In this document: piece by piece, positions 8,700-58,151 of the stretch
Position numbering within the stretch: position 1 is the first letter of the stretch
Layout of the letters: each line of letters opens with the position of its first letter
Notes under the pieces: generated by a model
What the model was told of the DNA's origin: nothing
What the model saw: only the letters and a program-made list of their open reading frames with translations
Database searches by the model: none
Program-made: the position numbers and the translations under genes
Assembly: GCF_000165425.1 (NCBI RefSeq)
Contig: NW_001799200.1
Location: 248,178 to 312,177, forward strand
Direction of reading: 5' to 3'
DNA length: 64,000 nucleotides
Source of the DNA: Paramecium tetraurelia
Lineage: Eukaryota > Ciliophora > Oligohymenophorea > Peniculida > Parameciidae

Positions 8700-9374
8700 A
8701 TGAATATTAAAGAATTAAGCTCATTTATCAAAGAATATGATCTTAAGCTTACTTAAAAGCTAGTCAAATACTTAGTGATAATTGGAATATCAGCTATGAA
8801 AAGCAAAACGTAGGATATATCAATTGAAACGATTAAACTAATTGCGAGTATTTTTGAATTTAACAATTAGGCTCTTGTAAATAATAAAAGTTGAAGAAAG
8901 AAATGGCTACTTTAAAAGAAAAAGTAATCAATATTTAATAGTCAATTACCCCAAGAATGGGAAATTGCAATTTTTCTGAAGATAAATAATTAAGAATTTC
9001 AAAAAGCCCATTGATCTAATCAGAATATTCACCTATTTAGAAGAAAAAGGAATAACCTAGTAATAAGACGAAAAAAGCTATATCGGTTTAAGATTAAGAT
9101 TTCAATTTTTAATCGTTAAATTTGAAAAATAAAAGTAATCAACTCAGTAAAAAATTGGAATAATAAAATAAATAAACATAATCTTAAAAAGATAATTAAA
9201 ATTGCTATTAATCATCAATGAGAATAAATTTAGATTAGATTGCCAATAATTTTCTGAGATCTCCTTTAATCCAAAATCCGTTGACAATAAGAAACTAATC
9301 TTAATAAAATGAACTCTAATGTATAAATAATAATATTGATAGATTTCTTTTAGAATACATGGAAATAATTTTGA
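8700..9374 (+). CDS. Q/S-rich protein, unrecognised
   Basis: 210 residues in three exons, with introns of 20 nt (8877-8896) and 22 nt (9321-9342). The first ~60 residues are helical and hydrophobic/charged; the rest is Gln/Asn/Ser/Lys-rich and probably disordered. Using the second intron ends the protein at 9374, 20 bp before the stop of the convergent Myb gene. Reading through it would overlap that gene by about 100 bp, so the spliced form is preferred. No domain was recognised. Confidence 0.5.
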
Positions 9375-9393
9375 AATTTCATGATTAAATGTT

Positions 9394-10906
9394 TCATTTA
9401 TTATTATTAGGTGTTACTAAGAAATTATCTAAATCTAGATCTTTCTTGTATTTTTTAAATGCACTTTGAGTGTATCCAAATTTAGAGCTAGATGATTTAG
9501 TAAAATCTTTAGTTGCTTCTGCAAAATCAATATTGATATCTAAATTAAGATCATCTCCTTAAAGATATTTTTAAGAGTTTGCATCTAAATATAAAGAATA
9601 ATTCTAAACCTATGTCTTATTTAAGCTTTTCTAAATATTGATCATAGTCTTAATTATAAATCACAGGTTTTATCAAAATGATAGGTGTGAAACTAGAATT
9701 ATTATTGATAGTCTCTTTAAGATATGTTTCATTTTACTGTTCTTTCGAAATTGATTTTTAAGAAGTACTCTTTATTATTTGATCTGAAATTTAGTTCTAT
9801 ACACTCTAAATTGAATTTTAAGATTCTTGATAACAATTTTATGAAGATTCCTTTTATAAATGAAATAGATACATTTTCATCTGATTAAAATTAAAATCTA
9901 TCATAGATTATTTTAAAGACTGGACCCTACTTAGTCCTTATAATCATATCAAGATCATCTTCGTCATTAAATTTCTATAAGCATTATATGAGAAATAATT
10001 ACAATTTTTTTTCTTGAACTCTAACGAATTGATCTCTTTATTGGAATTTACACACTATTGTCACCCATTTTATAAAAACTAGAATACGAGTCATCCTCTT
10101 CATCATCATCTTCAATAATATTTTTTCTTTTCTTTAAATTCAATTTTCTTGATTTTAATTTATTTTCCCTTTGTCTAGTATAAAGTCCGCTTAATATAGT
10201 ATTTGAGAGTAATACTTAAAATCCATAATTTTCTCTATCAATTATTTGAATTTTTCCTCATTGAATTGGATAATTAATGATTTTTGTTTAGATTATGCAA
10301 ATTCAAGTATGGAATCTTATAATCCTTTGCAAGCTAAACATAACTTTTTCATATGATCATCCTTCAGTTCAGATGGATTTTTTTCAGCTAGTATGAAGAT
10401 CTTGGACAAAACACCTGGCTTTATGTCCTTGATCTATTGGGTACACTTTTCTTTGCTAAATATTTATTTACGTTGATTACTGTTTTTATCGCCAATCATT
10501 TTATTTATGCGTCTTAAACTTCTTCTTAAGGTTGAATAAAAATGATTTTTAATTGCATTATCCGTTCGACCTGGAAGCAATTTTGCGATTTCTGCCTTAA
10601 CATCTTTAAATCTGCAATTATTACCCATTTGTTTCCATGTTCTCTATGTGCCAGAAAGATTATTTTCTCTTCATTTTCACTCCAAGGATCTTTATTGATT
10701 GTTGGGTCCAAATGATTATGATATCTTTCTCTGCATTATTTACCAGATCGACCAAATAAACCATATATTTCTTTCATTTTTTCAGCCACAGTTGTCCATT
10801 TCTTAATCCCATATTGCTTTACTAAGTGAAGAATGGCTAGATCTTCCTATTCATTTATTTATTGATATCATAATACTTTTTAATTCCACGCTTTTCTATC
10901 AGTCAT
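9394..10906 (-). CDS. R2R3-Myb DNA-binding protein
   Basis: 450 residues, with six introns of 30, 29, 26, 28, 22 and 25 nt. Two SANT/Myb repeats occupy residues ~5-58 and ~62-108. The second is classic: W65-S-E-N-E-E, G-N-K-W84[19 protein letters not shown]. The first has a short insertion (K-E-I-Y-G-L-F-G) before R-S-G-K-Q-C-R-E-R-Y. This matches c-Myb/plant R2R3 factors that bind AACNG-type sites. After it come a Lys-rich segment with a long acidic run ([10 protein letters not shown], ~residues 240-250), then Ser/Gln-rich sequence. It is probably a nuclear transcription factor or nucleosome-interacting protein. The 61-codon standard-code ORF at 10526-10711 is part of this gene broken by an intron. 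Confidence 0.88.
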
Positions 10907-11026
10907 ATATAAATATTAATAAATACTGTTTCGACATATTATAATCATAAAGCTGTTGTATTTTTTATTAATCTGCCACCTGTTTACTTCTTAAACCCAT
11001 ATCGTTCACTAGTTTTATTTATATAT

Positions 11027-11999
11027 TCATAAATACAGCATTTTAGTCCATTATCCATGTACTTTCTCAGGCAATTCTATTTTTTATAATGGAACTGGCC
11101 AAGCCAAGTTAGGTTATGCTAAAAATATTCTTATGTGACTTACATATTTTTCCATATTTTTATTATTGCTGCAATAAATAATCTATTTCTCTATCAATCC
11201 TTTATTCGTCATATTCTTCTGGTTTTTATTTCAAAGTTTATCTTTTTTCTATCTCAATTTATGCGAAAATTCCTCTTTAATATGCACTATCTCGACTCTA
11301 AGTTTTTACAAAAGAAGGCCCAGGGATATTTTTCTGAACCATGTTAAAATCATAAAAGTCCTTACTACAAACAGGCTAAGCAGGCTTACTTATTTGTGGA
11401 CTCTTTGGAAATTCAATTGGATTCGTAGCTGTAATATAAAGAGATTAATATACGCCTGGACCTGGAGTTTTTGTCTTGTTTAATTGAATTTTCTAAATAC
11501 TGTTTTATAATAATAATCTCTATGAGGTCCTAAAAATCCACTATTCATAGAAGATGATGGTTTGACATGTTTTGTGATTTCTCGAAACTGTTTGATGAAG
11601 CCCTAATCAGCTTACAAATTCAATTTAAAATTCTTTAGTGGTTCTCTTTTTGCAAATCTCCTATCATCTGCTGTTACAGCTCTAGAATTGAGACCTAAGA
11701 TAGATGTTGTAGAAAACTAATAACAATAAATTTTATTTTACTTAAAGTCTCTTTGAACCTGATGTGTACAACACTATTTGTTAACCTTTAAGAAAATTTA
11801 ACTTCTTGTCTTTTCCAACTAATTTACCTGTGGAATCTCTTTCCTACAAAAATGGTTTAAAGTTCTAATTATTTAAGAGATCTTCTTTGCTTGTGAAAGA
11901 CTGTGTTTCAAATTCGAATTCTTGAGAACTTGGTGCTTTAGAACTCTATGCATCTATCACAAAATCGCTTGGGTTAGATTCATTAATCAGTTTTTACAT
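11027..11999 (-). CDS. PG-rich repeat protein (STPGR/SHIPPO-like)
   Basis: 298 residues in four exons with introns of 25, 26 and 25 nt. The middle has K-T-P-G-P-G-V-Y (near residue 160) and N-I-P-G-P-S-F-V (near 200), matching the P-G-P-x-x-Y/F core of sperm-tail PG-rich repeats found in axonemal microtubule inner proteins and ODF3-like proteins. Only two copies are seen, so assignment is tentative. The C-terminal ~90 residues are charged, helical and Gln-rich. A ciliary or cortical microtubule location would fit. The start lies 186 bp from the divergent start of the next gene. Confidence 0.55.
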
Positions 12000-12184: not shown

Positions 12185-13818
12185 ATGAAAAGTAAAACCA
12201 CTATAAACATATAGGGTCGAGATTTAATTTCTAGAGCGCTGCAGAAAGAGGCTTAATTAAAGGTGATCAGATGACACAAAAATTAATTAATTAAAATGAG
12301 CCTGATTTAGTTTTGCCATCTTTTATTTTGCCTAACCAATCTAATGGATTGAATCTTTCAGTTTAATTAACGAGAAAAATGAATTCAGACACCTATTCTC
12401 CAGAACATTAAACAAAGGTTCTAAATGAGTCCTAGATGACGAAATTACTCTTACCATAAATAGATAATAAAATACCAGTCTAACAGGATAACTCAGTCAA
12501 TTTACAATAATCATTTCAATTTTATGGACTTATGGATGAAAATCTTGGTTTTTAACATAATTTTCTTCACGAATAATCATTTGAATAAAATCATGAAAAA
12601 AAATAAATATCCCGATAATTGACTTATTCTTAGAATTAATTTTATCTTAATCATTCACCAAGAAGACGATAATATTCTTTTTAAATTAATAAAAACTTTC
12701 AAAGCAACTTAGATATAAACAAAGAGAATGATTTTTCAGACGATGAGATTGAAGAAAGCATTTCAAATTTTGAAAAAAACATTATCTAAAAAGAAAATGA
12801 AATCTAATAAATTGGTGCCTCACAAGATTCAAATCCTTTATTAACTTAAACTATTTAAGAAGTCAAATGCAAAGAGTATATCTACTGCTAGAAATTTAAA
12901 GCCTGTTTTATAGTTATTAGGGCAGTGCTTAGAATGATTATATTAGTTAGGTATTTTATTTTAATAATGATGTTTAGACCATTAAAATAAAAATGGACTT
13001 TAAATTAGCAACTATATTCTTAATTAATTAAATTGTTTAAATTTAAGGATAAATTAGTCTAAAACAAAATAAAATAATGGACTTAAATATCATTGACTAA
13101 AGTTCTATCTGTTTTAAGATATTAAACTCTTAAATAATGGAATTTTATAGTAATATTAATGTATTAAGACTTTAGGAAGGAAATATTGAAGATTTCCAAA
13201 AAGATTTGGCTATAACAAATTTTTTAAATTTATGTTCTCATCTAATTTCCAATCTTGAAGTAATGACATAACCCATCAATTTGTTACCAGAACTTGGATA
13301 TCAATCCTACTTAGAATAATTTGTCGAATATAGATCAACCTACAACATTTTTGTTACCAAAAGAACTGGTTATCTATAAAACAAATACTCGAAAATCAAA
13401 CCTATTGAAAAGGCTATGATTGCAACGGAGTGTGTAATTATGAATAATTTTATACCGAATTTAGTCTTACTAACCGAAAATCAAAAAAGTTTTTAATGCA
13501 GATGATCAAAATATTTAATTTTTAATTCGTGGATTCATCACAATTCTTCAATAATTATTCATAATGACTTTTTCTGATATCCCGTAGGCGTAAACATTGA
13601 ATACCGAATTTAAATATTAATAGATGCAAATTGGTAGAAACAAATATGGGATGATATTAGTTCCCATTCAAACTGATATGGAAGAGTTTTATAAAGGAAC
13701 TTTTAAACTTGACTAATTAAGATCTATTTTTGAAAGAAGAGGGTGGTTTTCGAATCTGGTGAAATAGTTTAAAAAGGTAGTTCGCAACATATACTAGCAG
13801 AAAATTTAAGAATTATGA
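12185..13818 (+). CDS. Tandem family member 1, uncharacterised
   Basis: A model of 515 residues uses introns of 23, 32 and 31 nt. The N-terminal ~210 residues are Asn/Ser/Gln-rich. A short basic-hydrophobic helix near residue 235 (K-F-K-A-C-F-I-V-I-R-A-V-L-R) is followed by a ~280-residue helical domain whose landmark is I-F-V-T-K-R-T-G-Y. The same layout recurs in the next three genes. The last intron (31 nt, about 13443-13473) is uncertain: splicing it removes residues that align with the paralogues, so a frame error or a weak site is possible. The function is unknown. It ends 41 bp before the next member. Confidence 0.5.
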
Positions 13819-13859
13819 TTATATTTCAAATACTTTTTTTTAAATTACTAGAAATAATC

Positions 13860-15327
13860 ATGTTGAGATAAAATCAAAAAAAATTATCTTTGTCACTCCA
13901 TTAGGATTACATTTTGCGTAATTATAAAGACTCCCATCAATGTCAAACAGTGACTGTTAGATAACAATAAATCCCTAAGCTGAACCTTTCTCCTATACGT
14001 CCAAGGCAAGCCAAAGCTCCTCGTTAAATAACATGTAACTTAGATGTGTATATGGATTAACTCTCGACTGCAAATTCTTAGCTAAATTCAAAAATTAAAG
14101 CTGACATTAACTATACCATGTGTTATGATCAAGATGAGCTGAAGCTAAGCCGAAAGATAGGTAGTGCTTGATCTAATTTTAGATTATAATTATACTCATG
14201 GCGAAAAAGTCAGATATAGGTCAACTATTAATCCTTCTACAATTCTTAGAAATAATCTACAAGAAAAATATTAATAGAGTCCTGAAAATTTTCTAATATA
14301 AACCTCAAGATTTACTAAAAGAAAATAAGTAATGCCATTCAAAATGTAATACTAAACTGAGATTAGTAGAATTACAAATTTATTTTGTTAGAATTAAAGA
14401 AAATTTAAAATTCTAAACAAATTTAGATGTCTTACCAGAACTATAGGGAGATTTGTTTTGTTGTATTTAAGATTGGCTTAACATATATCAGATGACTATT
14501 ATGCTTAAAGAGCTAAGATAGAACATTTTAATAGCTTAAAAACCGCATTTAAACTTGATAGAAACCTAAATGAGGATTTCATATAAAAAATGCAAGAATG
14601 GGCTGCTCCTGCGTTTTAGAAAATACTTTATTATATGGAAAAAAATTCTGAAAATAAAGCAAATGATGAGTTAATAGATAGTGAGAAGATTTAAGACTAA
14701 GAGCAACTTTGGTGCTTGAACTACGCAAAATTTCTATTTTAAAATATTGAATTAATAACCAGAAAAGGTTATATTCCAATTGAAATTATTAAAGAAGTAT
14801 CCAAGGCTACTATGATAACAAAGAATACTTAAATGACATTATTCCTTGCAAGAAGGTTAAAATTCTAAAATTCACCACTTTCAAAAACAGAGTATTAACT
14901 TATGGCTGGTGAATTTGTATATTTCAACATTATAATGAGGTAGTTCTTTGATTAAGCAAATAAATTAAAATATTCATCTCTTAAACACAATCTTTAACAA
15001 AAAAAAAAAATAATAGAAGTTGCCAGTATCATACATATTTATTTTATTAAATACTTTCTTAATATGCCTTAAAGAGGAGATGTTAGTGATAAACTACTTT
15101 TTTAGCGAAAGCTTCATATTTCTGGAGATAAAAATCAGGAATTAATTTTGATAGACACCAAGGATATTAGTTTGTCAGAAACCATAATTGTAGGATTAAA
15201 ATCAGAAGAACATGTCAGGAACTTGTTGAAAAAAAAAGAGAGTTTATAAAAATTATTAGGAAAATTATTTGATAAAACAATACAGAATATTTATTCTTAA
15301 ATTGAAATTTGTGATAATTTAGATTGA
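13860..15327 (+). CDS. Tandem family member 2, uncharacterised
   Basis: 481 residues with a single 22-nt intron near 14171-14192. The N-terminal ~150 residues are basic and Ser/Pro/Gln-rich. A basic-hydrophobic helix follows (K-F-K-I-L-N-K-F-R-C-L-T-R-T-I-G-R-F). The rest is a helical domain with T-L-F-L-A-R-R-L-K-F at the family landmark, then Y-Q-L-M-A-G-E-F, and a C-terminal segment V-G-L-K-S-E-E-H-V-R-N-L-L ending in a helix. All of these align in order with members 1, 3 and 4. No catalytic motif or known domain was recognised. Confidence 0.65.
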
Positions 15328-15415
15328 CTTACTAATCCCAATGATCAATTTTATATTTAATTTCTTAAATTATATAAATACATTCCACAAAAACTTAAAT
15401 ATAATTAAACTGCGA

Positions 15416-16951
15416 ATGTTTCATTAACTTTTATTACCACCAAATAGAAATACTAAGAAAGATTCTAAGCCTGATCAAAATACGAAAAATATTTAAAAGA
15501 ATCAATTACCCTAACTTTCAAAATATATAGAGAATGAATTAATGAAAAGAAGTGTTCAAAAAGAATAAGAGAGACGAATTTCATTATAGTAATAATCAAA
15601 TCAAATCGATGAAGATTTTAAAAATAGCCTATTGCTATAAAGAAGAGTTAATAAAAAAGAAATCGATCTATCTGTAGGATAAAGAAATTCTATAATTCTA
15701 GATGTAACAGAAAGAAAACCCCACAATAAATTGAAATAATTATAACATCCTATTAGTTAATGTATCACTATTGAGAACAAATTAAATTATAATGGAGATA
15801 AGGAAGAACCCAGTAATAAGTTAAGATCAATATCAGTCAACCAAAGAAATCCACAATACTCACATTCTTACTTAATGGAATAAGAAACTCCTAATGAATT
15901 TTAAAAGAATATGTTTTAATGTAATTAGATCTTAGATTTTAAAATATATATTGATTCATAACATTCTCATAATTAAATGGAAAAAAAATAAGGTAAATAA
16001 ATTCCTAATTATATAAATTTCTTTGAAAATAAAGTTGAGTAACCTTATAAATATGGAAAAAAAGACTTTTAGAAATATAAAAAAACTAAAAATATTCTTA
16101 AATTGTGGGGCTTTATATTCATTTTTATATTTAGATTGATTAAATAATTGAGAATAAAACAATTAAAAACTATTTAAAATTTAAGAGAATTAAGAGTTAG
16201 GTTAGAATCCTCCAATCAATAACAAATTGTTGACATTAAAATGAAATGGCATGATAAATTAATGGAAAAAGTGTTATTAACAATCAAATAGAATAAGTTC
16301 TCTTCAAATTTTAAAGAAAACTAAAACCCAAATGATAAAAAATTTATCCAAAATCGAAAATAATGGATGATAAATTTGACTTTATTGTTTTTTTAGAATT
16401 TGGATTTAATGACGAAAGCAGCAAATCTCAACCAAGAAATTTTGCTTTAAGCCTAAAATCACATTTTGTAAATAAACAAAAAATGTAGTTTATATGTGGC
16501 AAAGAGAATTAAGACCAAACTAAATTCAAAAGAAAAGTTACTAATAATTTGTGATTACTTATTCCTTTCTTTTATAATTGATGAAATTATTAAAAACTCA
16601 AATCAATTACAATGCATAAATGAACATCACCTTGCTGAATCTAAATTTTAATTAGTATCTATTTGTAGTTTGATCTAAATTCTTTATATGAATTACTTTA
16701 AGGAATTATAAGTATTTTAACCGAAAGTATTAAAAATCATTTAGAAAAGATTAAATATTAATAAAACAAAAAATCAAGAACTAAAAATTATTGAGGATGA
16801 AAATATTGACTAAAATGAGATTATTATATTAGGCTTGAATAATTTAGATTTCTATGAAAACCTAATAAAAGAAAATTAAAAATGGTATGATGAAATCTAA
16901 ACCTTTTTTCGAAATAGCATCAATAATTTAGCATCCTAAAATAATATTTGA
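15416..16951 (+). CDS. Tandem family member 3, uncharacterised, intronless
   Basis: A single uninterrupted 511-residue frame under the ciliate code. The N-terminal ~210 residues are Asn/Gln/Lys-rich. A hydrophobic stretch (W-G-F-I-F-I-F-I-F-R-L-I) flanked by Lys/Arg follows and could be a membrane anchor or an amphipathic helix. The conserved domain holds S-L-Y-V-A-K-R-I-K-T, a hydrophobic repeat L-L-I-I-C-D-Y-L-F-L-S-F, and the C-terminal segment I-L-G-L-N-N-L-D-F-Y-E-N-L-I-K-E-N-Q-K-W. It lacks introns while its neighbours have one to three, which is unusual for recent tandem copies. Confidence 0.7.
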
Positions 16952-17125
16952 TTCTATATATTTATCTGCTGTTTTTTTATAATAATATTTTACATACACG
17001 CATAAAGAAGCTTAACAAATTTCTTATAAATAAATAATTTACTCTTTTTCAATTAAAATCTAACCACTTCAAATTTACCACCTACGAAAACAATAGAGCC
17101 TCTATTTATTGAATTTAAAAATAAA

Positions 17126-18050
17126 ATGAGTAGAAATCCTTTTGGAAGAAAAATTCAATACAATAGACGATTAAGATAAACTAAAAAAGGACCCAAATAG
17201 AATACTAAGATAACAAGTGATCACCATTTAACAAGTTTCTTATAAGTTTAGAAAATAAGCATAATAAGTAAATTTGAAGATGACATCAATCAAATTATAT
17301 TTATTTTTGTTTAATTAAATACATTAATTATATCATCATTAGAAAATGTAATAAATATGACAAATGAAGGGGTCGTTATACATTAATTAAAATAATATAT
17401 ACTCATATTAAATCAACTTGTCTAGAATTTTCTGAAGGAATGAACAAAATGGTCTCTTCAAAGTATCAAATAATTGAATTTAAACATATTCAATTTATTA
17501 AGTATTATCGAGTAAATTTAGTTTGAAAAGAATTCAATCAAAAGACAATTCAGAAAAATTGCATGTGAAATTGATATTTTATTAAATCAACTAAAGAGGA
17601 CTAAAATGTTGATAGCTAAATTCTACTTTTTAGTTGTATTCAAAATGTATTTTTAAATTAAAGAGGATTTTACAAAAAACTATTTACTTTAAAGGGCAAA
17701 GCCTTTGTTTTGATTTGCAAACATTAATATTATAATAATATAATTAATAGCTAGGCTCAATTTTAATCAACTTAGAATATAATGATAGTATCTACCAAAA
17801 ACTAACCAAATTTATTGCCCTCTGACTGGAATTTTTATTTAATTCCTATAAATCAAATACTTTAAAGACATTGCTTTGGTTAAAGGATAAAATGTGTAAA
17901 TTATATAAAGTTACATCGGCTTTGGATAAATTTAAAGAAGTATTTAAATCAATGAAAACATAACACTCAGTTCCAACAACAGGTTATATTGACATCAATT
18001 TATGTAAAATCTTAGATAAAATTATCTTGAACCTTCTCAATTAAATATGA
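17126..18050 (+). pseudogene. Unresolved or decaying gene in the tandem cluster
   Basis: The start is convincing (a basic N-terminus, M-S-R-N-P-F-G-R-K), and the end reads as a helical C-terminus finishing at a TGA at 18048-18050. In between, the frame contains TGA at 17441-17443 and 17711-17713, and the downstream frame has another at 17823-17825. I could not remove these with any GT-AG intron of 18-40 nt. Each TGA sits where glutamine (TAA/TAG) would read naturally, as expected if Gln codons mutated by a single A-to-G change. It could be a pseudogene, two short genes, or a gene with splice sites I missed. Relationship to the flanking family is not evident. Confidence 0.4.
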
Positions 18051-18120
18051 TTCGCTACATTAAGGCAATTTAGTCAATTAATTGTATTTATTAATAATTT
18101 TTTATTACATCATCAAATAA

Positions 18121-19749
18121 ATGCTATAATTATTGTAACCGGGACAGTTTAATCTGCATATAACTGATAAAAATGCAGTCTTTAGTCCAAGATTAAATGA
18201 TCATTATCATTAACCTTATGCTTTGAAGCTAAAAAATAAGGCCATCTAACAAGATTCAACCTAGTATGAAAAAGATGTTCAAATAGATAGTCATGTTATA
18301 TAAACTAACGAGTAAACATATAAAACATATTAGACTTTCTCAAAATCAACTTTTAAAATTGAAAATGTATGAGTTAGAAAACTTAAGTTTAAAATAACAA
18401 AATGAATTGTTGAGTAGAGAAATAGGACATAAGCATAAAGAAATAACTAAACTAATAAAAATTTGCTAATATCCTCATCTACCCCCAGTCATTAAACCAA
18501 AATAATTTACATTTCTTGATTAAGAATTTCAAGAATATTTGCCTTCTACAAGTGGGCTATACCAAAATGGATAAGAATCAAAAAGAGCATAATCATACGA
18601 CTATTAGAACCAATCAAGAAATGATAGTTATTCAGACTCAAATTCTTATTAGCATACAAATAGAAGTTATAGACCTAGCAGAATTCAATCAAGAAATTCA
18701 AAAGAATTTTAAAAGTATCATGAGGATCCCTCTTAACCCTCATAATTATACTTACCCAATTTACGGGTAAAGTCCACACCAAGAGAATAATATTAAATTC
18801 TACATAGAACAAGGAGATATCATCTAAATGTTTCTCGTTTAAAAGTCCTTTTTATATTTATATTAGCATATACAAGGTGGAGTAAAAATTATAAGTAATA
18901 TTATATCTTATCAAAAGATAAAAACGAAATCTAAAACTGTAGCAACTTAAACAAATTCGATCAAAATATACAAAATGTCTTGAAACAATCTCCAATTAAG
19001 ATGTACTGATCTGCAAAATCATTATCAAATAATGGATATCCAATATTATAGACCCTTTGATTAAATCTTGTTCTTCAATTTAATTTATACAACAGTCCAA
19101 TGAAAATTCAAAAAATCCAAATAGTGAAAGCTCTATATAGTGCAGATAGAATTAATTGATGCAATTAACCATCTAAGTTATGAATAACATGGAAAAATTT
19201 ACAGAAAAGGATAAAATTCCAGAATTAATTTAAACTTCTCTATTCTTATCATTGTTTAAAAGTTAAAACTTAAAAGCTCCATTATTTGTTGCTAAAAGAA
19301 CTAAATACTATGCAAAAAATACACTTAAGATTGGAATCTATTAAGAAAAAATGATTGCAGGGGAATATTTCATTTTTAGATTATTTGTATCTAATTTAAT
19401 TGAATCATCCAATAATATGGCTTATCAAAATATCAACCATAAAATGTAATGTAAGTTTATTATTCTTGCCATAATGGGGATATTGTAAATTTTGTATGAA
19501 GATTATTTTTCTGAATTAAAATAATTAGATTAACCTTCGACTGAACTCTTTTAGAGAAGAATTAAAATCAGTAAATCGTAGGATATCAGCATTATAACTG
19601 ATGATAATATTGATTAAGATGAATCTTTAATATTTGGGCTTCATGGTAGAAAGAATTTTGATAATCTAATGGAAAAAAACTAGGAATGGTTATTAGATAT
19701 ATGTAACAAATTTGCTAAGATTTTAAATAATCTGCATTAAATTTTGTGA
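18121..19749 (+). CDS. Tandem family member 4, uncharacterised
   Basis: 527 residues in three exons with introns of 22 nt (18312-18333) and 23 nt (18895-18917). The N-terminal half has a short coiled coil and a Ser/Tyr/Arg/Gln-rich stretch. It is followed by a hydrophobic-basic helix (L-K-V-L-F-I-F-I-L-A-Y-T-R-W) and the conserved domain: P-L-F-V-A-K-R-T-K-Y, E-K-M-I-A-G-E-Y-F-I-F-R-L-F, I-F-G-L-H-G-R-K-N-F-D-N-L and N-Q-E-W-L-L. The C-terminal ~50 residues align closely with member 3. It is the last copy before a 0.9-kb gap. Confidence 0.65.
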
Positions 19750-20684
19750 TTATATTTGTAAATACTTTTTATCCTCACATTTATTAAATAACCTATTTTA
19801 AATAATTTAATGTAGATCAATCTCTATATTTATAAAATAAATCCTTAATATTATTCATATTTATTTTAATAATATTTTTAGTTAAAAAATAAATGTTATG
19901 TATTATTAAGTTAAATTATAATATAATTATATTTTATTTCGAGATAGATGAAATTTCTAGGTAATTATCACCTTTTGATCATAATTGGCACTAATAGAGG
20001 ATATGAAATGACATAACATACGATAATAAATATGATTATTATAATTGCTTAGATTAAAATAGGCAAGTATTTTATTATTTTATATTAATATTCATAAACG
20101 AATAGTAATTAACTAATATTTTTGATTTTTTGTGTTCTTTGGAGATAGTGAATTTAATCATAGAAACTATTACAAAGGATTATAATTGTTACATGAATAA
20201 ACTGCGAATTCTTTTTGATGAAATTTAAGAAGCAATAGAAATAAAAATTTTTTAGATTTTTTTAATTAATATGAAAGTGAATTGAAAAAAATGGAATTTA
20301 TTGATAAATAAAATTAGTAAAAAAGAGATGATTATTTATTCTCTTTAATTGGTTTTATTCTTGATAATTGAACAAAATGAATTGTTATAATGAGATCAGA
20401 TTTTCTAGAATATTTTACTTTCTTCTTCCTGATTAAAATAAAAGCTAAGAATTAAAATATTCTTATTAATATGAGTAATATGATAATAGCTTTGAATATG
20501 ATTCACATATAACTATAATAAATCTGAAGTTTTATGAAGGAATAAACACAGTATTTATATACAATTTTTGTACTATATATGCAGATTCTAGTTATATAGT
20601 TTTAGATAATATAATTTGTTTCGATTATTGAATGAGTTTAATTTATTATAAGTTATAATTATAAAGAGCAATAATAGTTAAAAA
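19750..20684. other. Intergenic, 935 bp
   Basis: Extremely AT-rich. A run near 20135-20210 on the plus strand reads like protein for about 30 codons but has no start and hits a TGA, so I do not call a gene. No RNA structure was recognised by eye. Confidence 0.4.
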
Positions 20685-20936
20685 ATGAGAAAATAAATAT
20701 TAAGTTTTGTGTTTAGCAAAGGATTTGTAAGAAGAAGGAATATATGGTATGTTGCATTTGTTACTCCTTTTATTTTATTTTTAAGTGAATTCGAATCGCA
20801 AAAGGTAGAATTAATAGCTTAATTGGCTTGGAGAAAAAGATTTGCTTTATCTTAATTTAACTCACCATAGTTGGATTGCACTAAGGAAGAGTTTGAAATA
20901 ATTGACCACAAAATAAAAATGAACAACCCAAAATGA
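20685..20936 (+). CDS. Small one-pass membrane protein (83 aa)
   Basis: An intronless 83-residue frame, too short for standard ORF calling because it contains TAA/TAG Gln codons. A basic N-terminus (F-V-R-R-R-N-I) precedes one hydrophobic segment, W-Y-V-A-F-V-T-P-F-I-L-F-L (~residues 21-33), and a charged tail with a second Trp-Arg-Lys-Arg cluster. The short basic N-terminus plus single span resembles accessory subunits of mitochondrial inner-membrane complexes; this is inference only. It converges with actin, whose stop is 47 bp away. Confidence 0.55.
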
Positions 20937-20983: not shown

Positions 20984-22167
<1,184 letters not shown>

Positions 22168-30476: not shown

Positions 30477-32122
30477 TCATTCAGTTTATATTTACTCTTT
30501 TTATTCCTCTTCACTTAAGACTGGAAAACATAGTTCTGTATTTTTTCTACAATACCCATGAGTAACAGGAGTAACAGGAAAGCCCTATTTTGTCATTCTA
30601 TCTTCCATTTGAATAAGACGTTTAACAAAAGAAGCATATTTTTCAGTTTCTTTGACTTTTGGATTCCAAAGACTAATAAATATATAATATTTGAATACGT
30701 TTCTGCAATAACTGATGTTCTCATGTATAATTTATTGAAATGTGTATTTTGATTATTAGTTTCTCCCCACAAAGGAACTTCACCTCCTATGATAGTATTC
30801 AGTGATCCTTATGGAAGGGATGGAGTCCATTTATAGATTTCTTTCCATGTATGATAAACAGAGTAAGGATTTCCAAAGGCATTTCCAAAGCCTGCATCAA
30901 TAAACAATGGGAAATAATCCATCAATATGATTCTATTAGGTTTATCAGCAACATCTGGTAATTGATCAGTATTTCCCCACCAATGAATAATATCGTCTTT
31001 ATCAAGTGGTAAATTGTCTTCTTTTCTATAGAGATAGATGATATCTTGTTCTGCTTTAATGACATCCTTCCATAATTACTTTTACCTTCTTCTGTAATAG
31101 GATTGCAATTCAAAATAATCATTAATGTTGTTTTTTTACATGAATTCTTTAATTTCAGGTCTTTGATCCCAACAAGTCTTGCTGACCTCATCACCTGCAA
31201 AGTTAACAAACTTGACCTTCTTGAACATTTGATAGAAGTCCTTTAATATAGATTCTAGGACTTGATAAGTCTTCTCTAATGTTGGATCAAGCACACCATA
31301 TTATTTTATTGTGCTTCCACACATCATCATAATATCAGCTAATTCTTTAGTCATTCCCCAACTCATTGAATGTCCAGGACTATCAAAACTAGGTATTATT
31401 TAAACTCCTCTTTTTGAAGCATATTCAACTATTCTTGTAGTGTCATTTATTGTATAATATGAATTCTCTGAATATTTTGTTGAATGTGTAATTCCAGGGT
31501 ACTCTGTTAATAGTAATGGAAAACTCTCGTCATCTGTAATATGCCAATGGACTGTGTTCATTGAATTCATGACTAAGGAATCAATTGTTCTCTCTATCAA
31601 TTGGACAGATAGAAAGTGTCTAGCACTATCAATCAAAATCCCTCTGTAACTATAAGTTGGTTCGTCCTCTATTGTTAAGGGAAGATCATGTATCTCTCCT
31701 TTCTCACTTAATTAATTTAAGGTGTTCAAAGCCCTGACCAAACCCCAATGATTATTCACTTGGATTTAAACATTCAATTCATTATCAATATCTAATCTAT
31801 ATGATTCTTATTTAGTTGTATCAACTCCATACAATTATTCAAAGGATTCTATTTGCATGGAGATCTTCATGGCTCCCAAGTCATTTGTAAACCCAAAAGA
31901 TTATCTAAAATTACATTGCTTTGGAGTCATCAAAGTATGAAAATGTTCAAGTAATTCCAAAATGAAATCTGGGTATTGATCCTCAGTTGCTTGATATCGT
32001 AGTGAGCATTTATTCTCAATTTTGACAACCTAATCTCCCTTCTATATAGCTTTAGGCATAGGCATCAAGCTAGCGACATTATGAAATATGACGCAGAATA
32101 GAAAAAGTACAAATAAATTCAT
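30477..32122 (-). CDS. Secreted GH20 beta-N-acetylhexosaminidase
   Basis: 539 residues with one 26-nt intron (30673-30698). The N-terminus M-N-L-F-V-L-F-L-F-C-V-I-F is a signal peptide. Residues ~40-170 look like the GH20 b-type N-terminal domain. The catalytic barrel starts near R-G-I-L-I-D-S-A-R-H-F and contains M-N-T-V-H-W-H-I-T-D-D-E-S-F-P, the catalytic pair D311-E312 in F-A-G-D-E-V, a W-W-G motif, V-P-L-W-G-E and the late A-E-T-L-W-N-P-K active-site loop. GH20 enzymes release terminal GlcNAc/GalNAc by substrate-assisted catalysis with the Asp-Glu pair. It is expected in lysosomes/phagosomes or secreted, for digestion of bacterial and glycoprotein glycans. The family usually reads G-G-D-E; here the first Gly is Ala. 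Confidence 0.93.
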
Positions 32123-57207: not shown

Positions 57208-58151
57208 ATGCTTGTTTCGAAGAATTTAGATTCTGAAAATGAAAACAACACCAACTTGCAAATTCAAAGACACAACCTATCCTTTAGTCCTATATAAAAA
57301 GAAGATTGGACTTAAATAATGGAAGAAGAATCAATCAGTGATTTCAGACAGAATGACTTAACTTTAGCTTTGTTCTATACTACTACTCTGACACCATAAA
57401 AGTATAATAACCAATTCTATTAAGTCATATCGATTTGATCAATATATTCTCTAAATCCAAAGAATTTTAAATGGCTAATCCTGAGGAACCAAATGCGTAT
57501 TATGCAGAATTGATTGATAGAGATATTGGTAGAACTTATCAATAGATTCCATATTTTAAAGATAAATAAAATTAAGATAAAATAAGATAACTTCTGGTGA
57601 ATTATGCATAACATGATCCAGATGTTGGTTATGTTTAAGGGATGAACTTCATAGCAGGAACCTTAGTTTATTTTTAAGTTCCTTAAAATTAAAAAATCTT
57701 CAATGAATTAATCTACAAACATAGAAACAATTATGTTACAGGAACTCCTGGTTTATTTGAAAACTTAGCAAAACTGAAATTCAAATTGAAGGCTAAAATT
57801 CCTTAATTATTTAAACATCTGCAAGAAATTGGACTTAATGATTTAGGCATTAGCTTTAGTCCTTTTTATTTAACAATGATGCTTTAAAGCACACCAATCC
57901 AATACTAGATGATAATCTTAAACATTTATTAACTCATGGGCTAAAAATATATCACAAAATTGTTAGTAGCCATGCTTAAACTTTCGAAAAAAGCATTGAT
58001 GAAACTGAAGGATGTAGAAAATGTTAATAAATATATTAGAACCCAATTGTTAGCTAACTTTTTCTAAGAAATTGAAATATGTAGGAAAGAACAACGACTT
58101 ATTCAACTCTTTTTTAATATTGGATTAATTAGACGTATTAATGAATTTTGA
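57208..58151 (+). CDS. TBC-domain Rab GTPase-activating protein
   Basis: 306 residues in two exons with a 23-nt intron near 57401-57423. The TBC domain covers ~90-285. The arginine finger lies in I-D-R-D-I-G-R-T-Y and the glutamine finger in Y-V-Q-G-M-N, so both catalytic residues are present. Downstream F-E-N-L-A-K-L and G-L-N-D-L-G-I-S-F match later TBC motifs (the usual W-F-L is divergent: S-P-F-Y-L-T). By family it speeds GTP hydrolysis on a Rab and so controls membrane traffic. The target Rab cannot be read from the sequence. There are no accessory domains. Confidence 0.88.

Follow-up and report, generated by a model that had tools for sequence, protein, structure and literature searches.

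A tandem array of Paramecium tetraurelia genes sharing a conserved, predicted helical domain of unassigned function

The array and its genes

We analysed a stretch of 64,000 nucleotides from the ciliate Paramecium tetraurelia (contig NW_001799200.1, positions 248,178 to 312,177; hereafter the window, or C158:248178-312177 in the contig numbering used below) together with the whole genome in which it lies (69.07 Mb, 231 contigs). The window holds a tandem array of four genes, which a preliminary description made from the letters alone had singled out as an uncharacterised family. On the sequence evidence, these genes belong to a real gene family with no assigned function, and they are neither an artefact nor a known system. 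The window reads in genetic code 6, has a guanine-cytosine (GC) content of 22-36% per 2 kb and contains predicted introns of 22-31 bases; the code, low GC content and tiny introns fit a Paramecium macronuclear genome.

All four genes were recovered at the positions first proposed for them, using code 6 and tiny GT..AG introns, and the short spacers reported between members 1 and 2 (13819-13859, 41 bp) and between members 2 and 3 (15328-15415, 88 bp) proved exact. Member 1 is not a single open frame, having three introns and a frame break, and members 2 and 4 contain introns as well (Table 1). A first gene caller found none of the array genes; a second, used instead, cut member 4 into two and placed the start of member 1 at 12271. 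The final models were finished by hand with the duplicate array on contig C36 as a guide. The start at 12271 was rejected; the C36 duplicate of member 1 retains the start at 12185 and the intron at the same place. The C36 duplicate of member 4 likewise has an intron at the site of 18895-18917. The conserved domain of member 1 begins at about 12893, and near 13490 the gene carries a 1-base insertion relative to its duplicate, which breaks the frame. A 31-base intron at 13434-13464 would mend the frame, but at the cost of conserved residues still present in the C36 duplicate, and the 1-base shift is preferred for that reason. As far as the sequence can tell, the shift reflects a sequencing error or else a recent disruption of the gene.

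Table 1. Array members and synteny markers in the window
Feature	Position	Strand	Structure	Remarks
Member 1	12185-13818	+	exons 12185-12191, 12215-12950, 12978-13149, 13176-13818; introns 12192-12214, 12951-12977, 13150-13175	
Member 2	13860-15327	+	intron 14161-14182	
Member 3	15416-16951	+	single exon, 511 amino acids	domain at about residues 215-511
Decayed fifth member (interval)	16952-18120	+	stops in all three frames	profile and tblastn matches
Member 4	18121-19749	+	introns 18312-18333, 18895-18917	
Flanking gene (synteny marker, not family)	10945-11999	-		relatives adjoin family loci on C36, C47, C154, C168
Actin gene (synteny marker, not family)	20984-22167	-		Pfam E 8.9e-139; close copy beside the C36 array

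A constrained domain behind variable tails

The domains of the four window proteins align with one another above chance, as expected of a single family, with local alignment Z-scores of 7.8, 3.3, 13.4, 24.2, 20.3 and 27.0 for the six pairs (100 shuffles; member 1 entered as a model with the 31-base stretch removed). The weakest pair, members 1 and 3, scores 77, where the best shuffle reaches 75. The N-terminal tails give Z-scores of only -0.2 to 1.8 in all six pairs, which bears out the earlier impression that the N-terminal halves are unlike while the C-terminal domain is kept. The tails had also been described as low-complexity; they are unalignable but not all featureless. An LPLIS-like motif, picked after looking, lies at residues 7-40 in 10 of 23 tails (0.08 expected in shuffles), being carried by member 3, by its duplicate and by the whole of a clade of eight (support 99), and three tails appear coiled-coil-like by eye (C36_333330, C109_308296 and C47_387358).

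Comparison with the C36 duplicates by the Nei-Gojobori method gave ratios of nonsynonymous to synonymous substitution rates (dN/dS) in the domain of 0.10 for member 1 (only the part before the frame break), 0.21 for member 3 and 0.13 for member 4, and in the tail of 0.29 for member 1 and 0.48 for member 3, at a moderately saturated dS of 0.66-1.28. Because dN/dS is lower in the domain than in the tails, the domain is the constrained part, and these ratios show it to be under purifying selection, in keeping with the suggestion that it is the working part of the protein.

The four genes are a true tandem family, but one whose extent had been underestimated: a decayed fifth gene, a duplicate array and 26 other loci had been missed, as had the introns and the frame break of member 1. 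Genome searches with four different members, after which the retrieved regions were scanned with a profile, identified at least 30 loci that retain a near full-length domain, a count that is itself a lower bound. Many are in tandem arrays, with four loci on each of C158, C36, C47 and C154, two on each of C109, C197 and C210 (the C210 pair lying far apart) and one on each of C86, C168, C169, C173, C177, C194, C207 and C214. It is an old, multigene family and probably lineage-specific.

The profile scan also returned partial, remnant-like matches on C158, C168 and C169. Two of the partial members, at C169:216879-217684 and C168:285930-286091, adjoin intact ones and are probably decayed; because partial members stand beside intact ones on these contigs, loss within arrays seems to be recurrent. 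These three remnants, together with a counterpart lost on C36 and the frame break in member 1, are what would be expected if the loci were mostly redundant or decaying and had little present function. We regard this as highly unlikely in view of the domain dN/dS of 0.10-0.21 in all three duplicate pairs and the near full-length domain kept at 30 loci.

The FVAKR-like landmark noticed at the outset is real, its last residue, Arg160, being invariant at 30 of 30 loci. Phe230 and Gly275 are each found at 29 of 30, and Thr128, Phe156, Glu182 and Asn306 at 27 of 30 each; in this alignment, and in the trees built from it, rows W1, W4, K36_1, C194 and C47_a carry a few residues of intron read-through. 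Such retention across very divergent loci would suit an enzyme or ligand-binding domain of an uncatalogued fold, with the arginine of the FVAKR loop in the active or binding site. The remaining conserved columns (at least 70% one residue) are nevertheless largely hydrophobic or glycine and include neither His nor Cys, and the arginine could merely hold the bundle together; we consider such an activity unlikely.

A decayed fifth gene and the duplicate array on C36

The interval between members 3 and 4 weakly matches an intact gene of the C36 array (C36 333330-334890). An uncorrected tblastn search aligned 17570-17956 with 25.8% identity over 132 columns (E 8e-6), and one with composition correction and low-complexity masking aligned 17762-17959 (E 7e-4). 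Weak E-values from the uncorrected search are inflated, since it also matched minus-strand sequence outside the family (19838-20926) at 6e-7, which became 0.15 once corrected. A profile of the C36 gene and its C109 relative found 17813-17944 (independent E-value 2e-5, next non-family match 0.02), and the general domain profile found 17786-17989 (E 7e-6, next non-family match 0.075).

The window and C36 share flanks on both sides of the array, namely the genes at 8700-11999 on the left and the actin gene on the right. The left-flank genes also stand beside family loci on C47, C109, C154, C168 and C214, where a few kb were covered at each; the nearest of them has a PGPGxY-type repeat by eye and no Pfam match. 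Member 3 and its C36 duplicate are 57% identical. No intact counterpart of member 2 is predicted on C36 in the stretch bounded by those of members 3 and 1. In the tree, member 2 groups with its nearest relatives, the C109 and C214 loci (C109_a and C214, support 100), so the ancestor possessed it, while C109_b is joined (support 100) by the intact C36 gene that corresponds to the window remnant. From the remnant and these groupings, the ancestral array comprised at least five genes, and a different one is missing from each of the two present copies. Less favourable to this history is the scarcity of traces of member 2 on C36: the stretch 336628-336978 matches it by tblastn at E 9e-5 uncorrected and 0.014 corrected, and a member-2 profile finds no match there. 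On account of the corrected value and the silent profile, this stretch was not counted as a remnant.

Because the paired copies differ in their losses and match in their flanks, the array is older than the last genome duplication. This sequence comparison shows that tandem duplication had built the array by the time of the last whole-genome duplication, and the array is probably older than an earlier duplication too. Duplicate blocks with partial gene loss are described for the P. aurelia complex (PMC10195154), and Paramecium families shaped by whole-genome duplication resemble the present one in both respects. The difference from that pattern is that five or more genes stand in tandem here. 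The same paper emphasises how rarely single genes have been duplicated in recent times (PMC10195154), with which there is no conflict, since the array seems to predate the last genome duplication. With a different gene missing from each, the arrays on C158 and C36 form a small natural experiment on which paralogues can replace one another.

Structure model, possible RasGAP relationship and proposed function

A moderately confident AlphaFold2 (AF2) model of the member 3 domain is mostly helical (predicted local distance difference test, pLDDT, 79; predicted template modelling score, pTM, 0.71), with a long first helix, more helices, a hairpin (positions 227-247 of the modelled sequence) and another helix at the end. 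Foldseek searches with this model gave no match at E <0.001 among 190 in PDB and 144 in BFVD, and none among 430 with a model of member 2. Pfam, NCBIfam, PHROGs and PDB sequences likewise contained no convincing family match, the Pfam scans covering overlapping sets of 4, 16 and 9 members. Scattered weak hits, each to one member, were judged to be chance, among them Herpes_UL42 (0.044), DUF5009 (0.11), DUF7056 (0.0091), Hmw_CFAP97 (0.037), DDE_Tnp_1 (0.09), UbiT (0.0031), PH_FT_N (0.02) and NOD (0.027), as was a sequence match to PDB 9uxb at 0.33. A viral origin was set aside; the BFVD search was without significant match, and scans of viral contigs and prokaryote genomes with short exact peptide patterns, which detect close relatives only, were empty. 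No publication in the part of the literature searched was recognised as describing the family. Its status as undescribed extends no further than the named libraries and this partial search; in neither folds nor libraries was there a significant match to a well-known family, and a weak RasGAP-like signal was not confirmed.

This signal would be explained if the domain were a far-diverged RasGAP-type fold that lacks the arginine finger and binds a small GTPase as a pseudo-GAP. The family helix LIAxEYLIFxIIIPNLL would then correspond to the RasGAP signature helix VVSGFVFLRLICPAIL. Among the 50 best of the 190 PDB matches to the member 3 model, p120 RasGAP (8bos_G) alone has a high Foldseek probability (0.72), albeit at E 0.88 and a template modelling (TM) score of about 0.3; the poorer member 2 model has no RasGAP among its best 50 of 430. 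Local alignments of hidden Markov models (HMMs) of the family and of RasGAP always fall on the signature helix. With hhalign, p120 scores 17.5-17.9 and a RasGAP of this genome, on C200, 20.2-20.5, above all 40 column shuffles with three masters each, while NF1 scores 15.4-15.5, a value reached by 1-2 of 40 shuffles; the RasGAP profile consists of 6 sequences, and the shuffling is a lenient null that destroys helix periodicity.

VPS9 and TBC domains, helical regulators of Rab GTPases that are present in the same genome, served as controls taken to be unrelated to RasGAP (two families, 4 of 12 masters scored for each, TBC row L047 being translated out of frame). Against RasGAP profiles, VPS9 reached up to 17.1 and TBC 15.3, so that, measured against RasGAP with VPS9, p120 and NF1 score barely higher or no higher and C200 only somewhat higher; against the family itself, VPS9 gave only 9-10 and TBC 10-13. 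The default, realigned hhalign probabilities are at most 0.16%, and HMMER gave nothing useful in either direction. A search of the whole genome with Pfam RasGAP (PF00616) at E <=10, in which the best candidates only were scored, returned 6 exon matches on C200, C14, C2 and C211 and none in the family, and the family members scanned stay below the curated Pfam cut-off for this domain.

The arginine finger, the LFR.. loop in p120, has no matching motif in the conserved columns by inspection, and the invariant arginine sits elsewhere, just before the signature-like helix. The family resembles RasGAP domains (PF00616: p120GAP, NF1, IQGAP and the C200 and C14 genes) in being helical; the short helix that looks signature-like in local HMM-HMM alignment and the one Foldseek lead may be further points of likeness. 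It differs in the low TM score, in the basic-hydrophobic helix in front and in the C-terminal beta hairpin of the model, which RasGAP domains are not known to have. In view of the Pfam, HMMER and hhalign results and the two AF2 models, RasGAP membership was not adopted and is kept only as a rival that we consider rather unlikely; if the hint were true, it would indicate a group of GTPase-binding proteins that has so far escaped recognition.

RasGAP and VPS9 matches were found close together on the same strand on C200 and C14 (L029 and L030; VPS9 at C200:213480-213785 and C14:196291-196584) and likewise on C2 and C211, a pairing like that of GAPVD1-type proteins. The window also has a RabGAP-TBC domain gene at 57471-58151 (Pfam E 1.2e-30); 116 TBC exon matches occur across the genome.

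The best explanation, held with moderate confidence, is that these are lineage-specific adaptor-like proteins, in which a variable tail is joined to a shared helical domain with an invariant arginine. Each protein has a fast-changing, mostly disordered-looking tail, which a short basic-hydrophobic helix links to a conserved domain some 280-300 residues long. The predicted structure of this domain is a helical bundle that includes one beta hairpin and ends in a final helix, and its single invariant arginine lies in the FVAKR-like loop. A soluble binding role, adaptor or regulatory, is proposed for the domain because neither an active site nor a clear membrane span is recognisable in it, and the differing tails would be address tags that steer one shared domain towards different partners or locations.

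Several points weigh against this explanation. The role is deduced from the absence of other signals, and the conserved Arg, Glu and Thr could be part of an unrecognised active site. The AF2 alignment for member 3 consisted of the five window rows only, the member 2 model is poor (pLDDT 65), and member 1 may be broken in the present assembly. A membrane span is possible in some members: judged by hydropathy alone, the maximum 19-residue Kyte-Doolittle mean is 1.39-2.63 across 23 proteins and exceeds 1.6 in 14 of them, mostly inside the domain, with one at 2.63. The Lys/Arg-flanked hydrophobic helix of the preliminary description is the most hydrophobic window in three of the 23, member 1 included; in the other 20, that window lies inside the domain.

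A fuller proposal, which we regard as doubtful, is a helical domain peculiar to ciliates, of a fold that PDB does not contain, expanded before the last genome duplication to at least 30 paralogues, with tails acting as interchangeable address tags and the arginine loop as functional centre. In a bolder version, the proteins would form a large family of finger-less RasGAP-like pseudo-GAPs by which ciliates link small GTPases to various structures of the cell. If the family is truly ciliate-specific, its domain would be one of unassigned role that selection has preserved in a ciliate through genome duplication.

Elsewhere in the window, a glycosyl hydrolase family 20 (hexosaminidase-like) gene lies on the minus strand at 30477-32065.

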